DNA of 10,139 nt from the NCBI GenBank assembly GCA_902783305.1, contig CACZQU010000274.1:1-10139 (forward strand). Reading direction: 5' to 3'. The notes beneath the pieces are model-generated. The model was not told the DNA's origin, searched no databases, and saw nothing but the letters and a program-made list of their open reading frames with translations. The stretch comes from an uncultured Lachnospiraceae bacterium (lineage in GTDB: Bacteria > Bacillota > Clostridia > Lachnospirales > Lachnospiraceae). Shown here piece after piece: positions 1-9,859 of this stretch. The position numbers and the translations under genes were made by a program. Each line of letters starts with the position of its first letter. Position 1 is the first letter of the stretch.

Positions 1-937
1 CGGCATCATTTCCGGCCATTGGCGCATTCTCCGCGCCCTGCTCCTCTTTCTTATATTCCCACTCCTCTGCCTCCACAATCTCTACATTTTCACAATAATC
101 AAAGGAATCCGTTTCTGTTTTCACCGCGCCGCAGAGGACTGCTTTTTCCAGTGCATGGCAATACTCGAAGGCTCTTGACTCCAGCTGGCTGTCCTGTGCA
201 CAGATGACCTGCTTCAAATCGTCACAATATCCAAAGGCTCTGCCTCTGACCATCACCTCCGGCCCGATCAGCAGCTGATCAACTACTTCGCAATAACTGA
301 AAGCACATTTCTCCACCTCAACCCCGGATGGAATCTCTACCACCGAGGGCAGCAGCGCATAACTGAACGCGTCTTTCCTGATTATCACATTTTCAGGGAG
401 ATGAAGCTCATCTTCTATGTCGCAGTATTCAAAGGCTCTCTCCCCGATGGTTTGCACCCCGTCAGGAATCGACAAGGCTTTCATCTTTTTATAGGTGAAA
501 GCCTGATATCCGATATCGGTGACCGGATATCCATCGATTTGCTCCGGTACCTCAATCACGTCTTCGAGCCCGGTATACCCGGCGATGGTGATCGTCTGAT
601 TATCCTCATTGACATAATAATGATAGTCCCCTGCGTCGATTACTTCAGGGAAGAGCGAATCCGGATCGGTTTCATCCGAAAGGTAATTCTCCGGATCGGT
701 TTCTTCCGTGAGGTGATTCTCCGGATCGGTTGTATCTGAACGGGAAGCATCCGGGTCAGATGCAAATTGTCCCTGGATATCGATGTCCTGCAGGAAATCC
801 TCTATCACGGATACGAGATCATCCCATCCATCCGGCATATCTGCGTCATAATCCCTGTCCGGAGCACCCGCCTGTGCATACCCCCCAAAAGACATCACTA
901 TAGCTAACGTTAACATAATCATCCATAACTTCTTCAT
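1..937 (-). CDS. Secreted BspA-like leucine-rich repeat protein (3' end outside window)
   Basis: The minus-strand frame stays open from the ATG at 937 to the window edge (312 codons visible), so the C-terminus is missing. The start is preceded by GGAGG seven bases upstream. The product begins MKKLWMIMLTLAIVMSFGGY and has a clear Sec signal peptide, with likely cleavage after AQA near residue 23. Residues 24-100 are acidic and contain a tandem 10-residue repeat (TDPEN/TDPDS units, about 63-92). From about residue 105 the chain turns into BspA-type LRR_5 units: IPxGVxxIGxxAFxYC and relatives such as AFEYC, AFSYC, AFGYC and SFDYC, spaced about 21-23 residues apart. Such proteins are surface-exposed or secreted and often bind host or other ligands; the ligand here is unknown. 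The recurrent Cys in AFxYC is notable. The gene has its own promoter-like sequence and lies beyond a terminator-like hairpin, so it is probably separate from the upstream operon. Confidence 0.85.
   Translation of the reverse strand, partial: MKKLWMIMLTLAIVMSFGGYAQAGAPDRDYDADMPDGWDDLVSVIEDFLQDIDIQGQFASDPDASRSDTTDPENHLTEETDPENYLSDETDPDSLFPEVIDAGDYHYYVNEDNQTITIAGYTGLEDVIEVPEQIDGYPVTDIGYQAFTYKKMKALSIPDGVQTIGERAFEYCDIEDELHLPENVIIRKDAFSYALLPSVVEIPSGVEVEKCAFSYCEVVDQLLIGPEVMVRGRAFGYCDDLKQVICAQDSQLESRAFEYCHALEKAVLCGAVKTETDSFDYCENVEIVEAEEWEYKKEEQGAENAPMAGNDA
661..750 (-). repeat. Three 30-bp tandem repeats inside the LRR gene
   Basis: Three consecutive 30-bp units start at 661, 691 and 721, each beginning CCGGATCGGT on the plus strand; a fourth partial unit (CCGGGTCAGA) starts at 751. 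They encode the acidic 10-residue repeat containing TDPEN or TDPDS. The first two units differ at only a few positions and the third is more divergent. The period is a multiple of three, so copy number can change without breaking the frame. The segment is probably a linker between the signal peptide and the LRR domain. Confidence 0.85.
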
Positions 938-1275: not shown

Positions 1276-1842
1276 TTATTCTTCAGCCAGATCTTCCAGC
1301 CAGTGGAAGCTGCCGGTCTTCACCACATCTTCTCCATAAATCGTCTGCCAGTCCTCCTTCATGGAAATCACATTGTACCCTGACTCCTCCCACCGCTCAC
1401 GCAGTTCTTCTTCTCCTGCATCTCCATATTCCCTCACATCATCGTCTGCTATTAACATAAATGCCAGACTTTTATATGGGTTATCGTAGATCGTGTAATT
1501 ATGCATACTCACATCACCGCTGCTGTTGCCAAATGACAGCACCGGATGGCGGCCTATTTCCTGGGCAATCTGGGTTACTTTATTCTTTTTGTAGTTATAG
1601 ACCATCGCCTGCTCCGTGCGGATAAGCGCATCTCCCTCTTCATAATCGCCCGCTTTTTCCGGCTGTTCTTCCCGCTCCGGATCTGTCTGCTCTACCACCC
1701 GTAATTCCACATCTGTTCCGATAATATTCTCATAGGGGATATCGATCTGGCCTTCCCTCACCAATGTACGGCAGACGAAGCGGTCATTGCCGGAGCACAA
1801 AAACACCTCGAAGTCATTACTCTGAAGATAATCTAAAAGAAG
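1276..1842 (-). pseudogene. HAD-superfamily phosphatase remnant lacking motif I
   Basis: The frame is open from just after a TAA at 1845-1843 to the stop at 1276, 188 codons. It encodes the C-terminal two thirds of a haloacid-dehalogenase-type hydrolase. Motif II is seen in LLDYLQSNDFEVFLCSGNDR, followed by a K-rich motif III region (KNKVTQIAQEIGR), motif IV in PVLSFGNSSGDVSMHNYT, and the family-typical tail with DDDVREY and ISMKEDWQTIYGEDV. The N-terminal DxDGT nucleophile motif (motif I), which normally lies upstream, is absent and the frame is closed by TAA there. The only in-frame initiator nearby is a GTG at 1806, inside the conserved fold, with no evident ribosome binding site. Intact relatives are usually around 300 residues with a signal peptide; the adjacent 32-codon ORF may be that lost N-terminus. 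The product could not be catalytically active. Confidence 0.75.
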
Positions 1843-1940: not shown

Positions 1941-2040
1941 CATTTCATCCTCATTTCCACAGGTCGACAGCATGATGAAACCCTCATATGGATCGTCTTC
2001 ATCAGTCTCTGCGGGCGCATCCCCATAGCCTGCTCCCGGG
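1941..2040 (-). pseudogene. Sortase-like C-terminal remnant (LSTC motif)
   Basis: A minus-strand frame overlapping the end of the epimerase gene reads FFPGAGYGDAPAETD, then EDDPYEGFIMLSTCGNEDEM, then KRS and a TAG at 1943-1941. The LSTC tetrapeptide after a hydrophobic strand and followed by an acidic turn and Arg resembles the active-site Cys strand of class B sortases, where a strand carrying the catalytic Arg should follow; here translation ends. No start codon or ribosome binding site serves this frame and no N-terminal sortase domain is visible, so I read it as a relic. The identification rests on a short motif. A near-identical DNA segment recurs at 8891-8919. Confidence 0.4.
1942..1970. 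repeat. 29-bp dispersed repeat, copy 1
   Basis: On the plus strand the copy is ATTTCATCCTC-A-TTTCCACAGGTCGACAG. Copy 2 at 8891-8919 is identical except for G in place of the central A. Flanking sequence on both sides diverges. The two copies bracket almost the whole minus-strand cluster in the same orientation, so they could serve as homologous recombination points, though 29 bp is short. Confidence 0.85.
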
Positions 2041-3171
2041 AAAAACGTGAGTTGGCAGATCCTCCTCCCCCTGCTTTTCCTCATAGCATATCATATCTGC
2101 AATGAACTCTGAAGCCCGTCCATTTCCGTAAGCGGCACACTTTCGGCACATCCTGTCATAGACATCCTGATGATCCAGTATTTCTGAAAAACCCTGGTAT
2201 ACGGATTCTTCTTCCGTTCCGATCAGGCGTATGGATCCGGACTGGATTCCTTCGATCCGCTCTGTATGTTTTCTCATCACGAGGACCGGACGTCCCCAAT
2301 AGGAACATTCCTCCTGAATCCCGCCGGAATCGGTCAGGCAGACATAACATCTTGCTTCAAGATTATGCCATACCATGACATCCACTGCCTCGAGAATGTG
2401 TATCTGCTCACAATCCGCGAATTCCTCCGCTGCTGTGTTGGACACTTCCGGGTTTGCATGAACAGAAAGAACCGCCCTGCAGCAAGGATGTTCTTCGAGA
2501 ACCCGCCGGATTGCCCGGAACATCCTGTGTAATGGCATACCGATATTTTCACGCCGATGGGCGGTAACCAGGACCAGTTTTCCCCGGGATGCCCAATCCA
2601 GCTCCGGGTGCCGGAAATTTTCCTGATAAGTATACCGAAGCGCATCAATCCCGGTATTTCCTGTCATGAAAATCGATGCCGGATCTTTTCCTTCCAGGAG
2701 AAGCTGGTCTGCAGCATATTTCGTTGGCGCAAAATAATACCGACTGACCAAGTCAATTGCCTGCCGGTTGAATTCCTCGGGAAACGGGCTCTCCAGGTCA
2801 TGCGTTCGTAGTCCTGCTTCGATATGACCGACCGGAATCTTCAGATAAAAAGCAGCCAGAGCAGCTGAAAATGCTGTACTGGTATCCCCATGAACCAAAA
2901 TGAGATCCGGTGCTTCTTTCATCAGGATGGGCTGCAGTCCCGTTATGACGGCTGTCGTAATGTCAGAGAGGGTCTGACGATCTTTCATTATTTCCAAACG
3001 GTAATCCGGCTGAATCTGAAAGAAATCCAGAACCTGACGCAGCAGATGATGATGCTGACCCGTAACACAGACAAGCGTGGATACCTCAGGCCGTTTTCGA
3101 AGCTCTATGACAAGGGGGCACATCTTGATCGCTTCCGGCCTGGTTCCAAAGACCAGCATCACTTTTTTCAT
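2002..3171 (-). CDS. wecB: UDP-N-acetylglucosamine 2-epimerase (non-hydrolysing)
   Basis: The gene encodes 389 residues, near the family norm of about 375. The enzyme interconverts UDP-GlcNAc and UDP-ManNAc in the cytosol, supplying ManNAc-type sugar donors. Family motifs appear in order: FGTRPEAIKMCPL (8-20), GQHH (38-41), HGDTSTAF (94-101, Asp96), HIEAGLRT (116-123, Glu118), PFPEEFNRQAID (129-140, Glu132), TAHRREN (203-209, His205), SVHANPEV (236-243), TDSGGIQEE (280-288) and RKHTERIEGI (300-309). The ATG at 3171 is chosen because it starts the conserved MKKVMLVFGTRPE and overlaps the glycosyltransferase stop as ATGA; an upstream in-frame ATG at 3276 would lie inside that gene. The last 20 or so residues are not family-like: they read a sortase-like remnant in the wrong frame, suggesting a recombination scar. 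Near-certain as an enzyme; its role in peptide or surface glycosylation is inferred from context. Confidence 0.93.
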   Translation of the reverse strand: MKKVMLVFGTRPEAIKMCPLVIELRKRPEVSTLVCVTGQHHHLLRQVLDFFQIQPDYRLEIMKDRQTLSDITTAVITGLQPILMKEAPDLILVHGDTSTAFSAALAAFYLKIPVGHIEAGLRTHDLESPFPEEFNRQAIDLVSRYYFAPTKYAADQLLLEGKDPASIFMTGNTGIDALRYTYQENFRHPELDWASRGKLVLVTAHRRENIGMPLHRMFRAIRRVLEEHPCCRAVLSVHANPEVSNTAAEEFADCEQIHILEAVDVMVWHNLEARCYVCLTDSGGIQEECSYWGRPVLVMRKHTERIEGIQSGSIRLIGTEEESVYQGFSEILDHQDVYDRMCRKCAAYGNGRASEFIADMICYEEKQGEEDLPTHVFPGSRLWGCARRD

Positions 3172-4115
3172 TGTTCCGGTTCCTTCCGTTCTTTCCTGAT
3201 GATTTTTTCCATTCGCCGTCTTGTCATCTGCTTTGCCATACTGAATCTGCCAGCTCCGGAAAACGCAGTCTCCCATGCTTTATATGCCTTTTCACGATTG
3301 GGAATTTCCGCATATGCGTAAGCGATCCTCATCCATTGTCTCCGGTACAGCCTCTCTTTTCCGGAAAGATCTTCTCCGAATCTCTCCACCATGGCTTCCA
3401 TTCCTTCGATATATCCTTGAAGATTGTCGGTCAGTTGTTCCCCTTCATGTTCATGGTAAACAGCAACCGGTTCCGGCGTACAGGCAACAGGGTATCGTTT
3501 TGCCAGCCGAAGATAAAGGTCATAGTCTTCCATGTATAATCTGGATGGATCAAATCCACCCAGTTCATCCAGACAGGCTTTGCGAAACATAACAAAGGAT
3601 GGATATCCGATCCAGTTTCCGCCCAGAAGCTTTCTGTATACGTTTCCCCGTTCCAGCCTGCAGCGCATCCGGCATTCTTCCCCGGTCTGATCCTTCCGGA
3701 TCCATCCGCCTCCATAAATCAGGCCTGGCTCCGGCTTGCCGAAGCGTCCCGCCTTTTTAAAAGCGTGTAACTGCAAGGCTGTTTTTTCCGGAAGCCACTC
3801 GTCATCATCATCCAGATAGGCAATATATTTTCCGGCCGCATAGGCCAGTCCGGTATTGCGTGCGGCAGAGAGCCCTTTACAGGTGGGATGGGGGATATAC
3901 AAAACATTTTGGTCCTGAAAAGCAGAAGCCAGATTACGGATTTCTTCTCTTCCGGGGAACTCCTTGTCACTGTCATCCACAATAATAATCTGCAGCAGCG
4001 GACAGGTTTGTGCCAGTACACTGGAAAGAGCCCGTTTCACCATCTTTGTTTCTCTGTTGTGAGTGGTGATCACTGCTGTAACCTCACGGATCGTATCATC
4101 TCTGATGGCAATCAT
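3168..4115 (-). CDS. Family 2 (GT-A) glycosyltransferase
   Basis: The gene encodes 315 residues of an inverting GT-A glycosyltransferase. The N-terminal Rossmann half reads VTAVITTHNRETKMVKRALS (12-31), with IIIVDDSD (43-50) for nucleotide binding, GLSAARNTGL (81-90), and the metal-binding acidic cluster YLDDDDEW (100-107). The acceptor half has GGWIR, MEDYDLYLRL (195-204), the usual catalytic-base ED motif, and a C-terminal helical tail rich in Arg/Lys. There is no transmembrane segment, so it is cytosolic or peripheral. The ATG at 4115 lies seven bases after the upstream stop; a TTG at 4133 inside that gene is an alternative start, and neither has a strong ribosome binding site, consistent with translational coupling. 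The stop overlaps the epimerase start (ATGA). Between a radical SAM maturase and a UDP-sugar epimerase, it is a candidate for glycosylating the modified peptide; cell-surface glycan synthesis is the alternative. Confidence 0.9.
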   Translation of the reverse strand: MIAIRDDTIREVTAVITTHNRETKMVKRALSSVLAQTCPLLQIIIVDDSDKEFPGREEIRNLASAFQDQNVLYIPHPTCKGLSAARNTGLAYAAGKYIAYLDDDDEWLPEKTALQLHAFKKAGRFGKPEPGLIYGGGWIRKDQTGEECRMRCRLERGNVYRKLLGGNWIGYPSFVMFRKACLDELGGFDPSRLYMEDYDLYLRLAKRYPVACTPEPVAVYHEHEGEQLTDNLQGYIEGMEAMVERFGEDLSGKERLYRRQWMRIAYAYAEIPNREKAYKAWETAFSGAGRFSMAKQMTRRRMEKIIRKERKEPEQ

Positions 4116-4122
4116 AATGGAT

Positions 4123-5238
4123 TTATTCCGCAAGCCGCTGGCAGGCTTTGATATTCCGCAGAAGCTTCAGCTCGTCATCCTTGTCAAGAGCCAGGTATCC
4201 TGCCGCATATTGACGGTATTTAAACTGCGCGTTAGCCAGAAACAACGTTTTCATCATCCGGCAATGGTCATTCGCGACATGATAGACATTATCATACAGG
4301 GCAAAATTTATCCCGTAACAGGTCGGACAATTTCCACTGATCGGACATTCCCTGCATTTTTCATCCAGATCCGCCTTTTGTAAAGGACAGGAAAAGTCCA
4401 TGCGGCTGGCCGCTTCCGCCTTTTCCTTTCCGATACAGAGCGGAGCAAACGCATGGCAAGGATAGCAGCGTCCATCCTTGTCATAGGATTTCATCAATGG
4501 ACCAACGCCGCAGAATCTTTTGGGATTTTCAGCATAGGGATTCAGGTCCAGAATGGCCTGATCCAGGAGTGTCGCAGGCTTCAGATCCGGATGCTCCATA
4601 TAATAATCGATCAATACTGCCAGCTGTCCGGCCAGAATTTCGGGACTGTTCTTTTCCCATGGAATGCCATATCCCAGGTTCGCGGATACCTGAAATCCTG
4701 TTTCATGAAGGCTGATGACGCCTTCTGCCAGATCCGGCAGGGTCCTTTCTGTCACGGTCATCTTTGCAAACGGATATTCCTTTTGAAAAAAACCGATGTC
4801 GATCTGGTCATAGGAATTGCATCTGTTTGCATTGTGCATCTTGCGGCTGCCATCCAGACTTAAATAGACCTCCATGCTGTCCTGATTTTCATGCAGCCAT
4901 TCTGCGATCTCCCCATGAACCAGTGTTCCATTTGTCGTTGCAAATCCAAACCAGCCTTTTTGCCATTTATTGTCTTTCAGATAGGAATGAATCTTTCGTA
5001 TGGTATCAAACGCCAGAAAAGGCTCTCCGCCAAAATAATAGATACAGACGAAATCGGATCCGTCATCTACGGTCATCTCATGGTCTACAATCTGAAGAGC
5101 CATGTTCAGATCCATGGCCGTATTCTCTTTATTATGTTCATAGCAATAAACGCAGGATAAATTGCAGGTGTTTGTCAAAGTCAGAATAACTATTTTTGTA
5201 TTCGGCTGATTCATAAACCGATCCAGATTTTTCCTCAT
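4123..5238 (-). CDS. Radical SAM/SPASM peptide maturase
   Basis: The gene encodes 371 residues. The radical SAM [4Fe-4S] motif CNLSCVYC (Cys25, Cys29, Cys32) follows strand KIVILTLTNT; the SAM-binding YFGGEP (68-73) and TTNGTL (101-106) are present, as is LSLDG (127-131). The C-terminal part is a SPASM-type auxiliary cluster domain: Cys243 in RFCGVGP, CYPC (258-261), Cys268, Cys284, CRECP (295-299), CPTC (304-307) and Cys326. SPASM enzymes commonly install carbon-sulfur, carbon-carbon or other crosslinks on ribosomal peptides. The ATG at 5238 has AGAGGA seven bases upstream; an earlier in-frame codon at 5286 is less likely. The gene follows the 54-aa peptide gene by about 200 bases, with a large hairpin between. 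A SPASM enzyme beside a short Cys-containing peptide is the standard RiPP arrangement. The exact chemistry cannot be read from sequence; an anaerobic sulfatase-maturase-like role is unlikely without a sulfatase nearby. Confidence 0.92.
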   Translation of the reverse strand: MRKNLDRFMNQPNTKIVILTLTNTCNLSCVYCYEHNKENTAMDLNMALQIVDHEMTVDDGSDFVCIYYFGGEPFLAFDTIRKIHSYLKDNKWQKGWFGFATTNGTLVHGEIAEWLHENQDSMEVYLSLDGSRKMHNANRCNSYDQIDIGFFQKEYPFAKMTVTERTLPDLAEGVISLHETGFQVSANLGYGIPWEKNSPEILAGQLAVLIDYYMEHPDLKPATLLDQAILDLNPYAENPKRFCGVGPLMKSYDKDGRCYPCHAFAPLCIGKEKAEAASRMDFSCPLQKADLDEKCRECPISGNCPTCYGINFALYDNVYHVANDHCRMMKTLFLANAQFKYRQYAAGYLALDKDDELKLLRNIKACQRLAE

Positions 5239-5336
5239 TTCTATTCCTCTGCTCTCTGAGCGAAAGCTTCCGCTTTGTATGAGCATGAACGCTCTGACCC
5301 GCTGAAAAACCGGAACCGGAGCGTGATCATCTTTTC

Positions 5337-5381
5337 GGCCGGGTGGAAAACGAAAGCCTGTGTCTTCGTTTTCCCCCGGCC
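5337..5381 (-). promoter_or_regulatory. Long hairpin between peptide gene and maturase gene
   Basis: GGCCGGG (5337-5343) and GGAAAACGAA (5345-5354) pair with TTCGTTTTCC (5365-5374) and CCCGGCC (5375-5381): 17 base pairs with one bulged base and a ten-base loop. In the minus (coding) direction the stem is followed by GAAAAG, not a U-tract, so it is not a canonical intrinsic terminator. Strong hairpins after RiPP precursor genes commonly protect the upstream message or partly block readthrough, giving more precursor than enzyme. That role is inferred here from position. Confidence 0.65.
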
Positions 5382-5442
5382 TGTGGGCTGACTAAACCAT
5401 TTCACAGGATTCCGGCGGATGGCCTGTCGGTGCCATCAGCCA

Positions 5443-5607
5443 TCAATCCCATGCCTGGCAGTATCCTCTGTGACAGCCGCTGAAATTCAGCTCTCCGGAA
5501 AGATCCTCCGAAACGGCGGCGCCTTCCTTTACCAGACACTTCATCCTCTCGTCGATGGAATCGAGTATGGTTTCGTCTAAAACGAAGCTTTTCTCTGCTG
5601 AACTCAT
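5443..5607 (-). CDS. 54-aa Cys-containing peptide, candidate RiPP precursor
   Basis: A short gene with an excellent ribosome binding site (AAGGAG, six bases before the ATG at 5607). The peptide begins MSSAEKSFVLDETILDSIDE, continues RMKCLVKEGAAVSEDLSGEL and ends NFSGCHRGYCQAWD with a TGA at 5443. The first 40 residues are acidic and helical-looking, as expected of a recognition leader. The last 14 are enriched in Cys, Tyr, Trp, His and Gly, as expected of a modified core, with a CxxxxC pair (Cys45, Cys50) as the obvious thioether or crosslink sites; Cys24 lies in the leader. No transmembrane segment or double-glycine cleavage site is evident, although GAA (29-31) or SGEL (37-40) could flank a leader. 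It sits directly upstream of a radical SAM/SPASM maturase. I do not recognise the family. Translation is likely; the RiPP precursor role is inference. Confidence 0.75.
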   Translation of the reverse strand: MSSAEKSFVLDETILDSIDERMKCLVKEGAAVSEDLSGELNFSGCHRGYCQAWD

Positions 5608-5691
5608 TTTGTACTCCTTTCTCCTTTTTCAAAAGGTACCAGCAGGTTGACAATAGTTCCTGTATGATGATCCTTTGCAGGGAACATCCTT

Positions 5692-6555
5692 TCATCCATT
5701 CCTGGTAAAATACAGATTGAGGGAACGCCGGCCGCAGGGTTCAAGTCCAAATGCTGTCCCCTCGAACCAGACCTCCGGATGCATTCGATACCAGTCCCGG
5801 ACCCGGAAAAGTGTCCGGGACAACGTATCTCCATCCGAAAAAAAGGGGGATTCCACCGGCAGCTGCAGATCCTTGTACCGCCGCAGGTAGATTTTACATT
5901 TCACGTCCTGTTTTCCGGTATCCAGTCCGACCATCCAAAATGCGGCCCCCGTGTTTTTCCTCACAAAATCTGCATGCTCCAGAAGAGCATCATACTCCGT
6001 GGAGATTTGTCCGTGGAGCTGCTGAAACAATTCCTGGCTTTGGGAGGAAAAATAATATTTTACCGTGTTCAGTTTCCCGTTCTCATATGCCAGTCCCAGA
6101 TGACAAAGCCATATTTCCCTGTCCTTCCGGTGTATCGATTCGTTTTCCTTCTTTACGAAGCAGCCGTAAGCCTCTGCCAGACGGCCATGCTTAAGAAGTT
6201 TGTCTCTGAGCATACGGACTTCTGATTCAATGGGAAAGATACGGTCTGTTTCCGCCAGCAGACTGCTGATATTTCTATGATTCCTGTTGCAAAGAGCGTA
6301 GTCAAACCGTTCCCGGCAATTATCCGATGGAAACCGTTCCAGTATTGTTTCCGCATACCTGAGCATATCCCGGTGAATCAGAAAATCGTAAAACGGTTCC
6401 GTGAAGACGAATGGGTCTGCTTCATGGTAAAGGCGGAACGTAACTTCAGGTGTATTCTCTTTACAGGAAAGGCATAAATAATCATAATCTGCTTTCCTGA
6501 TGCTGGTTTCACAGTACCGGGAAAACCATTCATACTCTTACTCTAACGCATACAT
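5692..6555 (-). pseudogene. Unrecognised ABBA-barrel-like protein with in-frame stop at codon 6
   Basis: An ATG at 6555 with a strong ribosome binding site (GAGGAG) begins MYALE, then TAA (6540-6538), after which the same frame continues uninterrupted for 281 codons to the stop at 5692. No ATG, GTG or TTG occurs in frame until Met64 (6366), which would start inside the fold without a ribosome binding site. I call it a probable nonsense allele of a 287-codon gene. I do not recognise the family. Four segments share a strand pattern ending in K/L-x-Y-F/L: VTFRLY (38-43), GLAYENGKLNTVKYYF (154-169), VGLDTGKQDVKCKIYL (209-224) and GLEPCGRRSLNLYF (270-283), separated by helical stretches. This resembles repeats of ABBA-type prenyltransferases, which include peptide prenyltransferases of the LynF/TruF/PatF group. 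The gene sits between a kinase and the peptide gene. The fold guess is tentative; helical-repeat protein is the alternative. Confidence 0.6.
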
Positions 6556-6596
6556 TTTACTCCTCTTTCCGGATCTGCCGAAATTCCGCTTCATGA

Positions 6597-7613
6597 CTAC
6601 AGGCATTCCAGTGCAGCCCGAAAAGCGGATGCAGACACATACCGTTTCCGGGGATCCGGTTCAATCGCTTTCATGACAGCTTCCGCCAGTCTGCGTCCGG
6701 AATCGATGGTTGCCGGACTGACCTGTGCTCCGATCCCTGCGATTTCAGCAGGATCTTCTGTCGGGGATCTGATCAGAATACGGGGAGGTGGAGGTGCTTC
6801 TCCACTTAAGCGCCGGAACAGGGCAAGGCTTCGTTCCTTATGAGTGAAGGAAACAGGATACAGCGGCTGAAAGGGAAGCCGGAAATCATTGATCATACGG
6901 TAAAGGATAAGCCCAAGAGAATATTCGTCCGACAAGGCCGAAAACGCATTGTCCCTGTATACCTCCGGAGCTGTATATGTTCCTGCTTTTTCCGGCATTT
7001 CATGTGCTTCTGCCATACTTTGCGCCATGCCGAAATCTCCGAGTTTATAGGCATCGGTCCGCACATCATAAAAAATATTGCCCGGGGCCAGATCACGGTG
7101 CAGAATTCCTTTTTTTTCACAGGATTCCAAGGCTTTGCACATATGGATGCCTATCCGGATTACTTCCGGAACTGTCAGCGGAACTTTACGGAAATGATCC
7201 TGGAGGGTTTCCAGTTTTTCCATGCGGATCAGCATTATCCATTCGTCTGTGCTTCCTGCCCGCAGACCTTCCTCACATTGTACGATATGCGGATCGTTAT
7301 CAAACAGGCACAGCGTATCATATTCCCTCTCGGCCTGCCGGATGACGCTTTCCATATATGTGTGATAGCCGTTTTGATCAAAACCTTCCAGGCGCAGACG
7401 TTCGTCGGGAATCTTCTCTTCCGAAATAGAGATCACCTTCAGCGCCGCTGTTTCCTCCCCGCGATGGATCTGCCATACATCCCCATAGACACCGCTTCCA
7501 AGGCGATGATCCAGATACCATTCGCCCCAGAAGGGCTCCATTCCTTGAACCCGGGTTTCCGGAGAACCGGTGAGATCCGTGTCCTGTTCTCTGTTGTAAG
7601 CTTTATTCTCCAT
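6597..7613 (-). CDS. Hanks-type serine/threonine protein kinase, soluble
   Basis: The gene encodes 338 residues and contains a complete eukaryotic-like kinase domain. It has the glycine loop LGSGVYGDVW (38-47), catalytic Lys59 in AALKVI, the alpha-C Glu97 in QAEREYD, the catalytic loop HRDLAPGN (172-179, Asp174), the Mg-binding DFG (193-195), the APE motif in TYTAPEVY (212-219), and DEYSLGLILY in helix F. All key residues are intact. There is no transmembrane helix and no PASTA or other sensor domain, so it is a cytosolic kinase unlike the PrkC/PknB housekeeping type. The ATG at 7613 overlaps the preceding stop by 11 nt and has GGA five bases upstream; the longer frame to 7859 lies within the upstream gene. 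Kinases inside RiPP-like clusters could regulate the pathway or phosphorylate the peptide or an enzyme; nothing in the sequence decides between these. Confidence 0.93.
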   Translation of the reverse strand: MENKAYNREQDTDLTGSPETRVQGMEPFWGEWYLDHRLGSGVYGDVWQIHRGEETAALKVISISEEKIPDERLRLEGFDQNGYHTYMESVIRQAEREYDTLCLFDNDPHIVQCEEGLRAGSTDEWIMLIRMEKLETLQDHFRKVPLTVPEVIRIGIHMCKALESCEKKGILHRDLAPGNIFYDVRTDAYKLGDFGMAQSMAEAHEMPEKAGTYTAPEVYRDNAFSALSDEYSLGLILYRMINDFRLPFQPLYPVSFTHKERSLALFRRLSGEAPPPPRILIRSPTEDPAEIAGIGAQVSPATIDSGRRLAEAVMKAIEPDPRKRYVSASAFRAALECL

Positions 7614-8748
7614 ATTCTTCCAAAATCTCATCCTCAACAATCCTGTCAAGATCGATGCTGTCAAAAAAACGGCGGCTGTTTCGGGACCAGTTGTCATAAT
7701 CCAGGGAAAGGGTCTCCAGCGCTTTTTCAATTTCTGCCGGATTTCTCTCACAGCAGATTCCCATCCGGTACCGGGAAAATGGCACTTCCAGACCGGGAAC
7801 CCGTGTTCCCAGCATAGGCAGCCCAAATGCTGCATACTCGAAGATTTTATTTGGCGCACAGTAGAGTGCGTTCAAAGGGGAATAGTGGAACGCTTCTTCC
7901 GGAATATAAGGCAGAATTCCGAAGTCTGCGTTTCGGGTAATTGATAAATGCATCGGGGGAGGCAGAAAAGGAATGTATCTTACTTCCGGAAACCGGCTGC
8001 GGAATTTTCTGCAAAGATCATTCTCTCTTCCCATGATATACAGGCAGTAATGCTTCCTGTTTCTCCGTACTGCTTCTGCAAATGCGCTTAAGTCCCGGTC
8101 CGTTTCAAATACGCCCTGATAAAGAAGGATTTTCCTCGTCTCAGCACGCATTTCTTCTTCCAGCTCAAGGATCCGCTTCTGATCTGTATCTGATCCGCCG
8201 GAACCGCTTTCGAGCTCATAGGGCTTATTGGGCAGGACGACAGGCCGCCTGTCCAGCTTCCACCAGGCCTGCTGAATGCAGGCACGGTTGTACTCCGGAA
8301 CGACCACCTTCCATGCTTTTCTGGCATATGCTTCGATATGAAGCATGATTGTATTCTGGTATGGAAAGAGTGGAATATCCTGTATAAGCTCCAACAATTG
8401 CATGATGTGGCAGTGCTCCAGCACTTCCTTCCCGAGCTCCCGAACGGTGCAGTCGGTTGTTGTCCAGAGAATATCGTGATTCGCCATCTCGCTCCGGACG
8501 ATCCGCCGCAGCTCTTTCTGAAACCTGCCATGCAGAAGAAGCTCCCCTGCGGCAGTTCTCCGTCTGGGGGAATGAATCTGTATCATGCGGATATTCCCAG
8601 AGGAAATACTAATATGACCTGGGTCGTCTTTGGCGATCAATGTTACGGCATGTCCGTTGTGAAGCAGATTTTGCAGCAGACTTAGAACAGGAGGGAAAAG
8701 ACTGACCTCATGACAATGGACAAGTAAGATTTTCTTTTTTCTGTTCAT
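7603..8748 (-). CDS. GT-B glycosyltransferase (family 4-like)
   Basis: The gene encodes 381 residues with a two-domain GT-B layout. The N-terminal half starts KKKILLVHCHEVSLFPPVLS (4-23), with the LLHNGHAVTLIAKDDP (28-43) acceptor-domain pattern. The C-terminal half has ILLYQGVFETDRDLSAFAEA (207-226), LYIMGREND (236-244), YIPFLP (258-263), and the donor-binding NADFGILPY (273-281) and PNKIFEYAAFGLPMLGTRVPG (299-319), where the EYAAFGLP stretch is the usual nucleotide-sugar site. Length is typical. No membrane segment is present. The ATG at 8748 has GGAG seven bases upstream. It is the first gene of the minus-strand operon and overlaps the kinase gene by 11 nt, indicating translational coupling. 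The donor and acceptor cannot be read; with the GT2 and epimerase downstream it suggests a glycan is built or attached in this pathway. Confidence 0.9.
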   Translation of the reverse strand: MNRKKKILLVHCHEVSLFPPVLSLLQNLLHNGHAVTLIAKDDPGHISISSGNIRMIQIHSPRRRTAAGELLLHGRFQKELRRIVRSEMANHDILWTTTDCTVRELGKEVLEHCHIMQLLELIQDIPLFPYQNTIMLHIEAYARKAWKVVVPEYNRACIQQAWWKLDRRPVVLPNKPYELESGSGGSDTDQKRILELEEEMRAETRKILLYQGVFETDRDLSAFAEAVRRNRKHYCLYIMGRENDLCRKFRSRFPEVRYIPFLPPPMHLSITRNADFGILPYIPEEAFHYSPLNALYCAPNKIFEYAAFGLPMLGTRVPGLEVPFSRYRMGICCERNPAEIEKALETLSLDYDNWSRNSRRFFDSIDLDRIVEDEILEEYGE

Positions 8749-9340: not shown

Positions 9341-9859
9341 ATGGATATCATGGAAAAAGTGGAACAGTTGACAGCCAAAGCTGATATCTCTTACGAAGAA
9401 GCGAAAGCTGTTCTCGAGGAAGCCAACGGGGATCTGCTCGATGCGGTCATTCTGCTCGAGCAGCGTGGGAAGATCAGAAAGCCGGAGACGGAGTTGATTC
9501 AATATGCTGGTGAATCCATCTCCGATGAAAATCCGGCAGCAGGAGAAAAGACCAGAAGCGATGATCATATAAAGGAAGGAGCCCGAAAAATGAAGAACGC
9601 GATACGAAAGATTGTCAATGTGCTCAGGAACAATACCTTCCATGTGTCCAGAAAAGGGGAAAGCCTTTTTAGTGTATCTGCATGGGCATTTGCCCTGATT
9701 CTCCTGTTCTTCTGGCACACGGTCATCCCGGTTATGATCATTGCTCTTTTCTTTGATGTGCGGTATTCTTTCACCGGAAAGGATGATCTGACAAAGGCAA
9801 ACCAGTTCATGGACAAAGCCGGCAGTATTGCGGATGAAGTGTGTGGTGAATTCAGGTGA
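9341..9859 (+). CDS. UBA-like domain membrane-associated protein (DUF4342-type)
   Basis: The gene encodes 172 residues. Residues 1-45 form a UBA/TS-N-like three-helix pattern: MEKVEQLTAKADISYEEAKA, then LEEANGDLLDAVILLEQRG, the layout shared with EF-Ts and NAC UBA domains. An acidic, variable linker (50-80) and a basic helix (80-105) follow. Residues about 110-138 are a hydrophobic segment (SVSAWAFALILLFFWHTVIP and onward) that should be a membrane hairpin or single span. The tail ends with a short charged helix. The arrangement matches DUF4342-type proteins of Clostridia, whose function is not established. The ATG follows an AGGAAA-rich site. A 221-codon frame on the opposite strand is its antisense shadow. 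Unlike the rest of the window it is on the plus strand, and it is followed by a strong terminator, so it is a single-gene unit unrelated to the peptide cluster. Confidence 0.85.
   Translation: MDIMEKVEQLTAKADISYEEAKAVLEEANGDLLDAVILLEQRGKIRKPETELIQYAGESISDENPAAGEKTRSDDHIKEGARKMKNAIRKIVNVLRNNTFHVSRKGESLFSVSAWAFALILLFFWHTVIPVMIIALFFDVRYSFTGKDDLTKANQFMDKAGSIADEVCGEFR

Follow-up and report, generated by a model that had tools for sequence, protein, structure and literature searches.

Several described systems are close to the locus reported here. Within Cx3D/E motifs, the maturase PapB links Cys with Asp or Glu (PMC9413430, PMC11002830). Among ribosomally synthesized and post-translationally modified peptides (RiPPs), cyanobactins, lanthipeptides, and ComX have been described as prenylated (PMC12715784, PMC11002830, PMC10373908). 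Soluble barrel prenyltransferases act on cyanobactins (PagF, PatF, and KgpF) and lanthipeptides (MppC), with KgpF and MppC prenylating Trp (PMC12715784, PMC11002830), and the peptide ComX carries a geranyl or farnesyl group on Trp (PMC10373908). Some radical S-adenosylmethionine (SAM) clusters of Bacteroidales carry glycosyltransferases or a histidine kinase, and "prenyl" is not mentioned in the sections of that paper covered here (PMC10352776). We analyzed bases 1-10139 of contig C274 from a Lachnospiraceae draft genome (2.99 Mb, 82% complete); this whole stretch of 10,139 nucleotides is called the window. It contains seven co-directional genes on the minus strand, encoding a GT-B glycosyltransferase, a kinase, a strand-repeat protein, a short peptide, a radical SAM/SPASM enzyme, a GT2 glycosyltransferase, and an epimerase. 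We found that the peptide and the radical SAM gene, with the kinase and the ABBA-type (strand-repeat) protein as recurring partners, form a small RiPP-type cassette in gut Clostridia, with an unusual combination of enzymes, that is real and recurs across genomes. A reading made from the letters of the window (the sequence-only reading) had proposed such a cassette, and the recurrence of these partners bears it out.

A recurring precursor and radical SAM cassette

Searching genome contigs with the radical SAM enzyme yielded 11 further loci with 63-92% identity, or 12 with the window, and the relatives belong to Lachnospiraceae and other Clostridia. Loci L013 and L016 are not independent because they have both the cassette and its flanks in common; they were counted as one lineage, and only L013 was aligned and folded. 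The peptide had exactly one match in each of the 12 genomes bearing the enzyme; at 11 loci it shares a contig with the radical SAM gene and lies upstream of it. At L010, the exception, the contig starts inside the radical SAM gene, and the peptide is found on a second contig, close to its end and facing outwards. The sequence-only reading was to be given up if homologous radical SAM genes turned up without a comparable peptide gene. This did not occur within the clade, where all 12 genomes have the peptide. Among more distant relatives the peptide was absent, and in five of the six loci read by eye (L023, L024, L025, L027, and L028) a different Cys-rich small open reading frame (ORF), probably encoding another RiPP precursor, lies near the enzyme. 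By eye, L026 has no small ORF worth naming near its radical SAM gene.

A kinase orthologue was found in the cassette in 10 of the 12 loci. It directly follows the radical SAM gene in L011-L019 (the L011 copy is cut by the contig end), and in the window it precedes the strand-repeat gene. The two exceptions are L009, whose contig ends too early, and L010, where an FHA-kinase adjoins the strand-repeat gene instead. Where detected, the ABBA gene precedes the peptide (window, L009, L014, L015, and L019), follows the kinase (L017 and L018), or follows the radical SAM gene with a TIR-STAND gene between them (L010). Absences in L009, L010, L011, and L015 carry little weight because these contigs are short or cut. 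When ORFs of at least 90 residues were compared between loci, the other gene groups in common were GT2 (window and L009), TIR-STAND (L009 and L010), an isomerase-like gene (L015 and L017), and the flanks of L013 and L016; one further cross-match joins two distant radical SAM loci. The cassette was thus found amid differing flanks and with altered gene order, and a gene set that is kept together while order and flanks vary is most simply explained as a functional unit.

A search of 397 genomes of the family (E ≤ 0.001) matched the peptide in the genome of the window and in none of the 396 others. Radical SAM matches at E ≤ 1e-60 were found in 2 of 397, 2 of 398, and 6 of 392 genomes, the window's own genome being counted each time; in the wider genome samples searched for loci, only distant relatives of the enzyme appeared beyond that genome.

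A profile search identified 123 relatives of the peptide at E ≤ 0.01, and motifs were counted on the 120 listed. As is typical of RiPP precursors, the leader is variable and the C-terminal core is conserved, and the short gene is conserved together with a modifying enzyme. The motif E-x-N-x-x-G-C-x4-C-x-[AG]-W is present in 117 of the 120 and stands at the very end in 116 (P0023 carries an extension); 113 also fit a stricter version in which Ser/Thr-Gly precedes the Glu. Three relatives miss the motif: P0109 has V in place of G, P0118 has G in place of the second C, and P0119 has a different tail. E-x-N occurs in all 120 and Trp in 119, and 118 have Ser or Thr at the second position ahead of the invariant Glu. 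The peptides end in WD (78) or WA (40), together 118. In the window core, the second Cys lies in one Cx3D motif (CQAWD). The gene is preceded by aaaggag, which resembles a ribosome-binding site, and its ratio of nonsynonymous to synonymous substitution rates (dN/dS) against L009, the nearest relative, is 0.13. Its presence in all 12 genomes, its 123 relatives, and this ratio indicate that the peptide is not a chance ORF.

In the radical SAM/SPASM enzyme, CX3CX2C and the SPASM-type Cys are invariant among 11 aligned sequences (the SPASM pattern was read by eye), PF04055 scores over its cut-off, and dN/dS against L009 is 0.09. A profile search returned 1155 proteins at E ≤ 1e-70; among the 120 matches listed, the best 63 have 60-92% identity to the window enzyme and most of the remaining 57 have 42-54%. 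No maturase model among the best 25 of 70 NCBIfam families reaches its cut-off. The best scores are those of PapB (NF047865, 132.9 vs 340 bits) and the CXXX-repeat maturase (TIGR04115, 113.7 vs 350 bits), followed lower down by DynA (49.5 bits), YhhB (44.1 bits), and AmcB (34.2 bits). Since its 371 residues leave no room for one, the enzyme presumably lacks a RiPP recognition element (RRE) domain. The peptide is very probably its substrate.

The label "ABBA-like" had been given to the strand-repeat protein from the letters alone, and structure prediction agrees with it. The models of the intact relatives from L018 and L009 (pLDDT 88.8 and 85.1) show the ABBA fold, a ten-stranded barrel of five strand pairs with outer helices. 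In both VIA lists obtained with these models, every one of the 50 rows shown is a prenyltransferase, and the Foldseek matches include PagF and PatF. Residues K153, K222, K224, and Y226 (L018 numbering) are invariant in a 14-row alignment and are candidates for the cationic/Tyr diphosphate pocket that ABBA enzymes need. In L015 and L017, the cassette includes a gene resembling isopentenyl diphosphate (IPP) isomerase, for whose products the IPP isomerase models are the two best NCBIfam scores. The ABBA profile had no hit at E ≤ 1 among sequences of solved structures, and the fold assignment therefore rests on predicted models. No prenyltransferase family was found in the Pfam scan (members from the window, L009, L010, L014, L017, and L019) or the NCBIfam scan (window, L009, L014, L017, L018, and L019). 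A wider protein search with the profile gave only 10 matches at E ≤ 0.001, and several of these were copies of known members, so the group is either rare or too divergent for that search.

The spacer between the peptide and radical SAM genes was folded for 10 of the 12 loci, L010 being broken there and L016 being equal to L013. A strong hairpin was found in all 10 (z -3.6 to -7.2); the whole window spacer has a minimum free energy of -82.1 and a z of -4.6. This lends support, though not proof, to unequal expression of precursor and maturase. The L009 spacer (L009:1444-1857) carries an insertion of ~200 bases with several near-repeats (CGCTCTGAATTCTGACATGGCG and neighbors) that the window lacks.

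Proposed maturation pathway and its rivals

From the gene content, the co-occurrence, the conserved core, and the predicted ABBA fold, we infer a pathway that we consider probable as a whole: a radical SAM-modified peptide, prenylated where the ABBA gene is present, with the kinase as a switch. The precursor of 54 residues would consist of a leader of ~36 residues and a core of ~18. The radical SAM enzyme would modify it, most likely by Cys-thioether crosslinks of C45 and C50 to core residues. The invariant E39 and N41 are candidate acceptors, and the second Cys also stands in a Cx3D context like that of a PapB substrate. Where present, the ABBA-fold enzyme would then add a prenyl group (dimethylallyl or longer), most likely on the penultimate Trp53, with dimethylallyl diphosphate (DMAPP) made in some strains via the putative cassette-borne isopentenyl-diphosphate isomerase. 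The kinase would phosphorylate either the precursor or the enzymes; by conservation, the Ser/Thr that precedes E39 by two positions is a candidate phosphosite. Leader removal and export would fall to genes outside the cassette. It is possible, although we hold this only tentatively, that the cassette represents a new class of RiPPs in anaerobic bacteria of the gut, combining radical SAM Cys crosslinks with an ABBA-dimethylallylated C-terminal Trp under Ser/Thr kinase control and yielding a lipidated, phospho-regulated signal or bacteriocin.

Several observations weigh against this pathway and are considered here step by step. A genome of the family sample with a distant radical SAM relative (G318, E 1.1e-90) gave no peptide match, and neither an exporter nor a protease was found among the gene groups common to the loci. 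When 17 other co-directional gaps were folded as controls, 5 reached z < -3.5 too; the hairpin, considered as proof of a RiPP operon, was accordingly reduced to moderate support.

As for the crosslink, Cx3D as a universal motif is weakened by the 40 of 120 listed peptides that end in Ala, and Glu39 and Asn41 are therefore at least as good acceptors. The enzyme could also make a change other than a thioether. It might form a C-C or C-O bond, at residue 49 or Trp53, or modify carbon in some other way, and the two Cys would later provide a disulfide or metal site. The near-universal Trp, kept even without an ABBA gene, and the sub-threshold scores of all listed maturase models would fit such a change. 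We nevertheless regard it as unlikely, as the PapB and CXXX-repeat models outscore DynA, YhhB, and AmcB among the families listed and the distant relatives of the enzyme adjoin Cys-rich ORFs. Thioether formation on the peptide, judged from these sequence comparisons, is the probable outcome.

The prenylation step meets more objections. The ABBA gene was found in 8 of the 12 genomes and was not detected in those of L011, L012, L013, and L016, all of them drafts. The Trp is kept in these four as well, so prenylation alone cannot explain its conservation. In the window, an ATG at 6555 is followed by an in-frame TAA at 6540-6538, and the next start codon is the ATG at 6366. The sequence-only reading was right about the presence of the gene, but the 224-aa ORF listed for it is missing the barrel's first strand pair. 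Because of this interruption the prenyl step is doubtful in the window strain; it may be gone there, or the TAA may have arisen through faulty assembly. The dN/dS of the gene against L009 (0.31) is the fastest of the four genes compared. Foldseek gave modest TM-scores, with TMq 0.54 (rmsd 8.2) and 0.61 (rmsd 5.9) for the top hits, and the isomerase-like proteins of L015 and L017, at 101.7 and 96.9 bits against the TIGR02150 cut-off of 105.8, fall 4-9 bits below that model and 10-20 bits below NF002995.

The patchy occurrence, the very divergent sequence, and the broken window copy would suit an ABBA-fold protein that prenylates a small molecule, or that is a non-catalytic binder, and travels with the cassette while leaving the peptide untouched. 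A common fold, moreover, shows no function, and the one weak family hit is a chance-level match to LnuB (19.8 vs 525 bits). Such a protein is nonetheless an unlikely explanation, since the gene shifts position yet remains within the cassette, the four Lys and Tyr residues named above are invariant, and it has an isomerase-like partner. We lean slightly towards prenylation of the peptide by the ABBA-fold enzyme.

The glycine loop, Lys, HRD, DFG, and APE motifs are all present in the window kinase. A further point against the pathway is that it reads HRDLAPGN, a place at which all seven aligned relatives have Lys. There is about an even chance that the kinase acts on the peptide or the enzymes. 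Alternatively, the kinase may be a sensor or output and the modified peptide an intracellular or pheromone-like signal for a phospho-signaling or conflict system, not an antibiotic. This would agree with the kinase at 10 of 12 loci, the lack of an exporter among the common genes, the VWA, PP2C, Hsp70, FHA-kinase, and TIR-STAND genes that flank L009, L010, L017, or L019, and the scores of the kinase against the defense kinases mad6 and PD-T4-6. However, the flanking genes are not common to the loci, except TIR-STAND in L009 and L010 (the family scan did not extend to the flanks of L012, L013, and L018), and the kinase-domain likeness is to a very large superfamily; we therefore consider this signaling role rather unlikely. 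A defense system proper was rejected because the PADLOC kinase scores fall on general kinase domains and TIR-STAND neighbors occur in two loci only. Also rejected was a piece of a lanthionine synthetase: Pfam finds kinase domains only, with no lyase or cyclase, and the class III/IV lanthipeptide synthetase models score 23.8 and 31.2 against cut-offs of 575 and 650 bits. A second kinase in the window genome (G000:C492:5669-6460, minus strand) resembles that of the cassette (265.9 bits, in a 575-aa frame).

The sequence-only reading had counted the two glycosyltransferases and the epimerase among the defining parts, and this was dropped. GT-B and the epimerase had no match at E ≤ 1e-3 in any of the 11 other loci, several of whose contigs are cut, and GT2 matched L009 alone (83% identity), where it also overlaps the end of the radical SAM gene. 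Judging from this distribution, the three genes may be lineage additions. A glycosylated RiPP, in which GT-B and GT2 decorate the peptide with the help of epimerase-made UDP-ManNAc, is very unlikely for the same reason. It would be in keeping with the overlaps in the window (GT-B/kinase 11 bases, radical SAM/GT2 11 bases, and GT2/epimerase 4 bases), with the dN/dS of 0.15 for GT2 against L009, and with the best NCBIfam score of GT2, which is to the mycofactocin glycosyltransferase MftF but far under its cut-off (65.4 vs 280 bits).

Features of the window and neighboring genes

The seven co-directional genes with overlaps or short gaps that had been read from the letters are all present with correct coordinates (Table 1). 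The span 3168-8748 given for them agrees with the gene coordinates, except that the epimerase, although named as part of it, falls outside.

Table 1 Features of the cassette and adjoining genes in the window.
Feature	Position	Strand	Basis or remark
GT-B glycosyltransferase	7603..8748	-	PF13692 over cut-off; outside conserved cassette
Ser/Thr-type protein kinase	6597..7613	-	PF00069 91.1 bits vs cut-off 31.7, E 1e-25
ABBA-fold prenyltransferase-like (strand-repeat) gene	5692..6555	-	In-frame TAA at 6540-6538
54-aa RiPP precursor peptide gene	5443..5607	-	Conserved in radical SAM genomes
C-terminal core SGELNFSGCHRGYCQAWD, residues 37-54	5446..5499	-	Conserved among peptide relatives
Peptide-radical SAM spacer hairpin	5337..5381	-	Folding of spacer
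Radical SAM/SPASM peptide maturase, 371 aa	4123..5238	-	PF04055 over cut-off
GT2 glycosyltransferase, lineage-specific	3168..4133	-	PF00535; TTG start placed by L009 relative
Non-hydrolysing UDP-GlcNAc 2-epimerase	2002..3171	-	TIGR00236 416 bits vs cut-off 210; outside conserved cassette

Three further ORFs were found in the window. At 2-937 (minus strand) lies a BspA-type leucine-rich-repeat protein with a signal-like N-terminus, truncated at the window end. The 172-aa ORF at 9341-9859 (plus strand), divergent from the cassette, has a sub-threshold N-terminal stretch resembling UBA and the nascent-polypeptide-associated complex and a hydrophobic C-terminal part. The 176-aa ORF at 1276-1806 (minus strand) matched nothing in Pfam or NCBIfam at E ≤ 0.1; its LSFGNSSGD recalls, by eye, the end of a HAD-type phosphatase, and it may be a gene fragment.

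In two close relatives, a protein combining TIR with an NPHP3/NACHT-type STAND region adjoins the cassette (L009:4089-7499, minus strand; L010:1133-4451, plus strand). In L010 it is split into two ORFs between the radical SAM and ABBA genes. Beside the cassettes at L017:233-8601, L019:461-8136, and L010:5765-10521 there are genes for VWA, PP2C, a TrwB/HerA-like ATPase (mad8-like), Hsp70, an FHA-kinase, and a Clp-type AAA protein, together with large proteins that have no Pfam match over cut-off.

Comparison with described systems

No RiPP combining a radical SAM enzyme, an ABBA-fold protein, and a kinase was found in the titles and abstract starts of the open PMC literature, which agrees with the sequence-only reading that no described class has this gene set. 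The novelty is provisional because most subscription papers and bioRxiv lie outside this coverage. If the proposed pathway is true, a radical SAM-crosslinked and prenylated peptide would widen the fields of radical SAM and prenylated RiPPs, a divergent group of Clostridia ABBA proteins would have been missed by the sequence profiles used here, and a RiPP would be linked to a dedicated protein kinase. The 123 peptide relatives make the family tractable for heterologous expression.

The cassette resembles the ranthipeptide system PapA/PapB (freyrasin), in which a SPASM radical SAM enzyme of similar length also stands beside a Cys-containing precursor and whose model (NF047865) gave the top score. 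The window core, like PapA, has a Cx3D motif. However, it has two Cys as opposed to six Cx3D-type links, a third of the listed cores (40/120) end in Ala, the partners include a kinase and an ABBA-fold protein, and the enzyme is far below the 340-bit cut-off of PapB. The CXXX-repeat maturases (TIGR04115) resemble it in giving the second-best score and in the Cys-rich ORFs near distant radical SAM relatives, but the cassette core has no CXXX repeats and the score is below 350 bits. As in prenylated cyanobactins and lanthipeptides, a barrel prenyltransferase is proposed to act on Trp, and PagF and PatF are among the structural matches. Unlike the enzymes of those systems, the cassette ABBA protein has no sequence match to a prenyltransferase family or a solved chain. 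To our knowledge, the cyanobactin and lanthipeptide prenylation pathways are not built on SPASM radical SAM enzymes. The ComX precursor is short with a Trp near its C-terminus, and the ComX system uses ComQ, which has an isoprenyl-synthase fold, and is not known to include a radical SAM enzyme. The proposed product would resemble ComX as a peptide prenylated on Trp, whereas the cassette differs in having a radical SAM enzyme and an ABBA fold in place of the ComQ fold.

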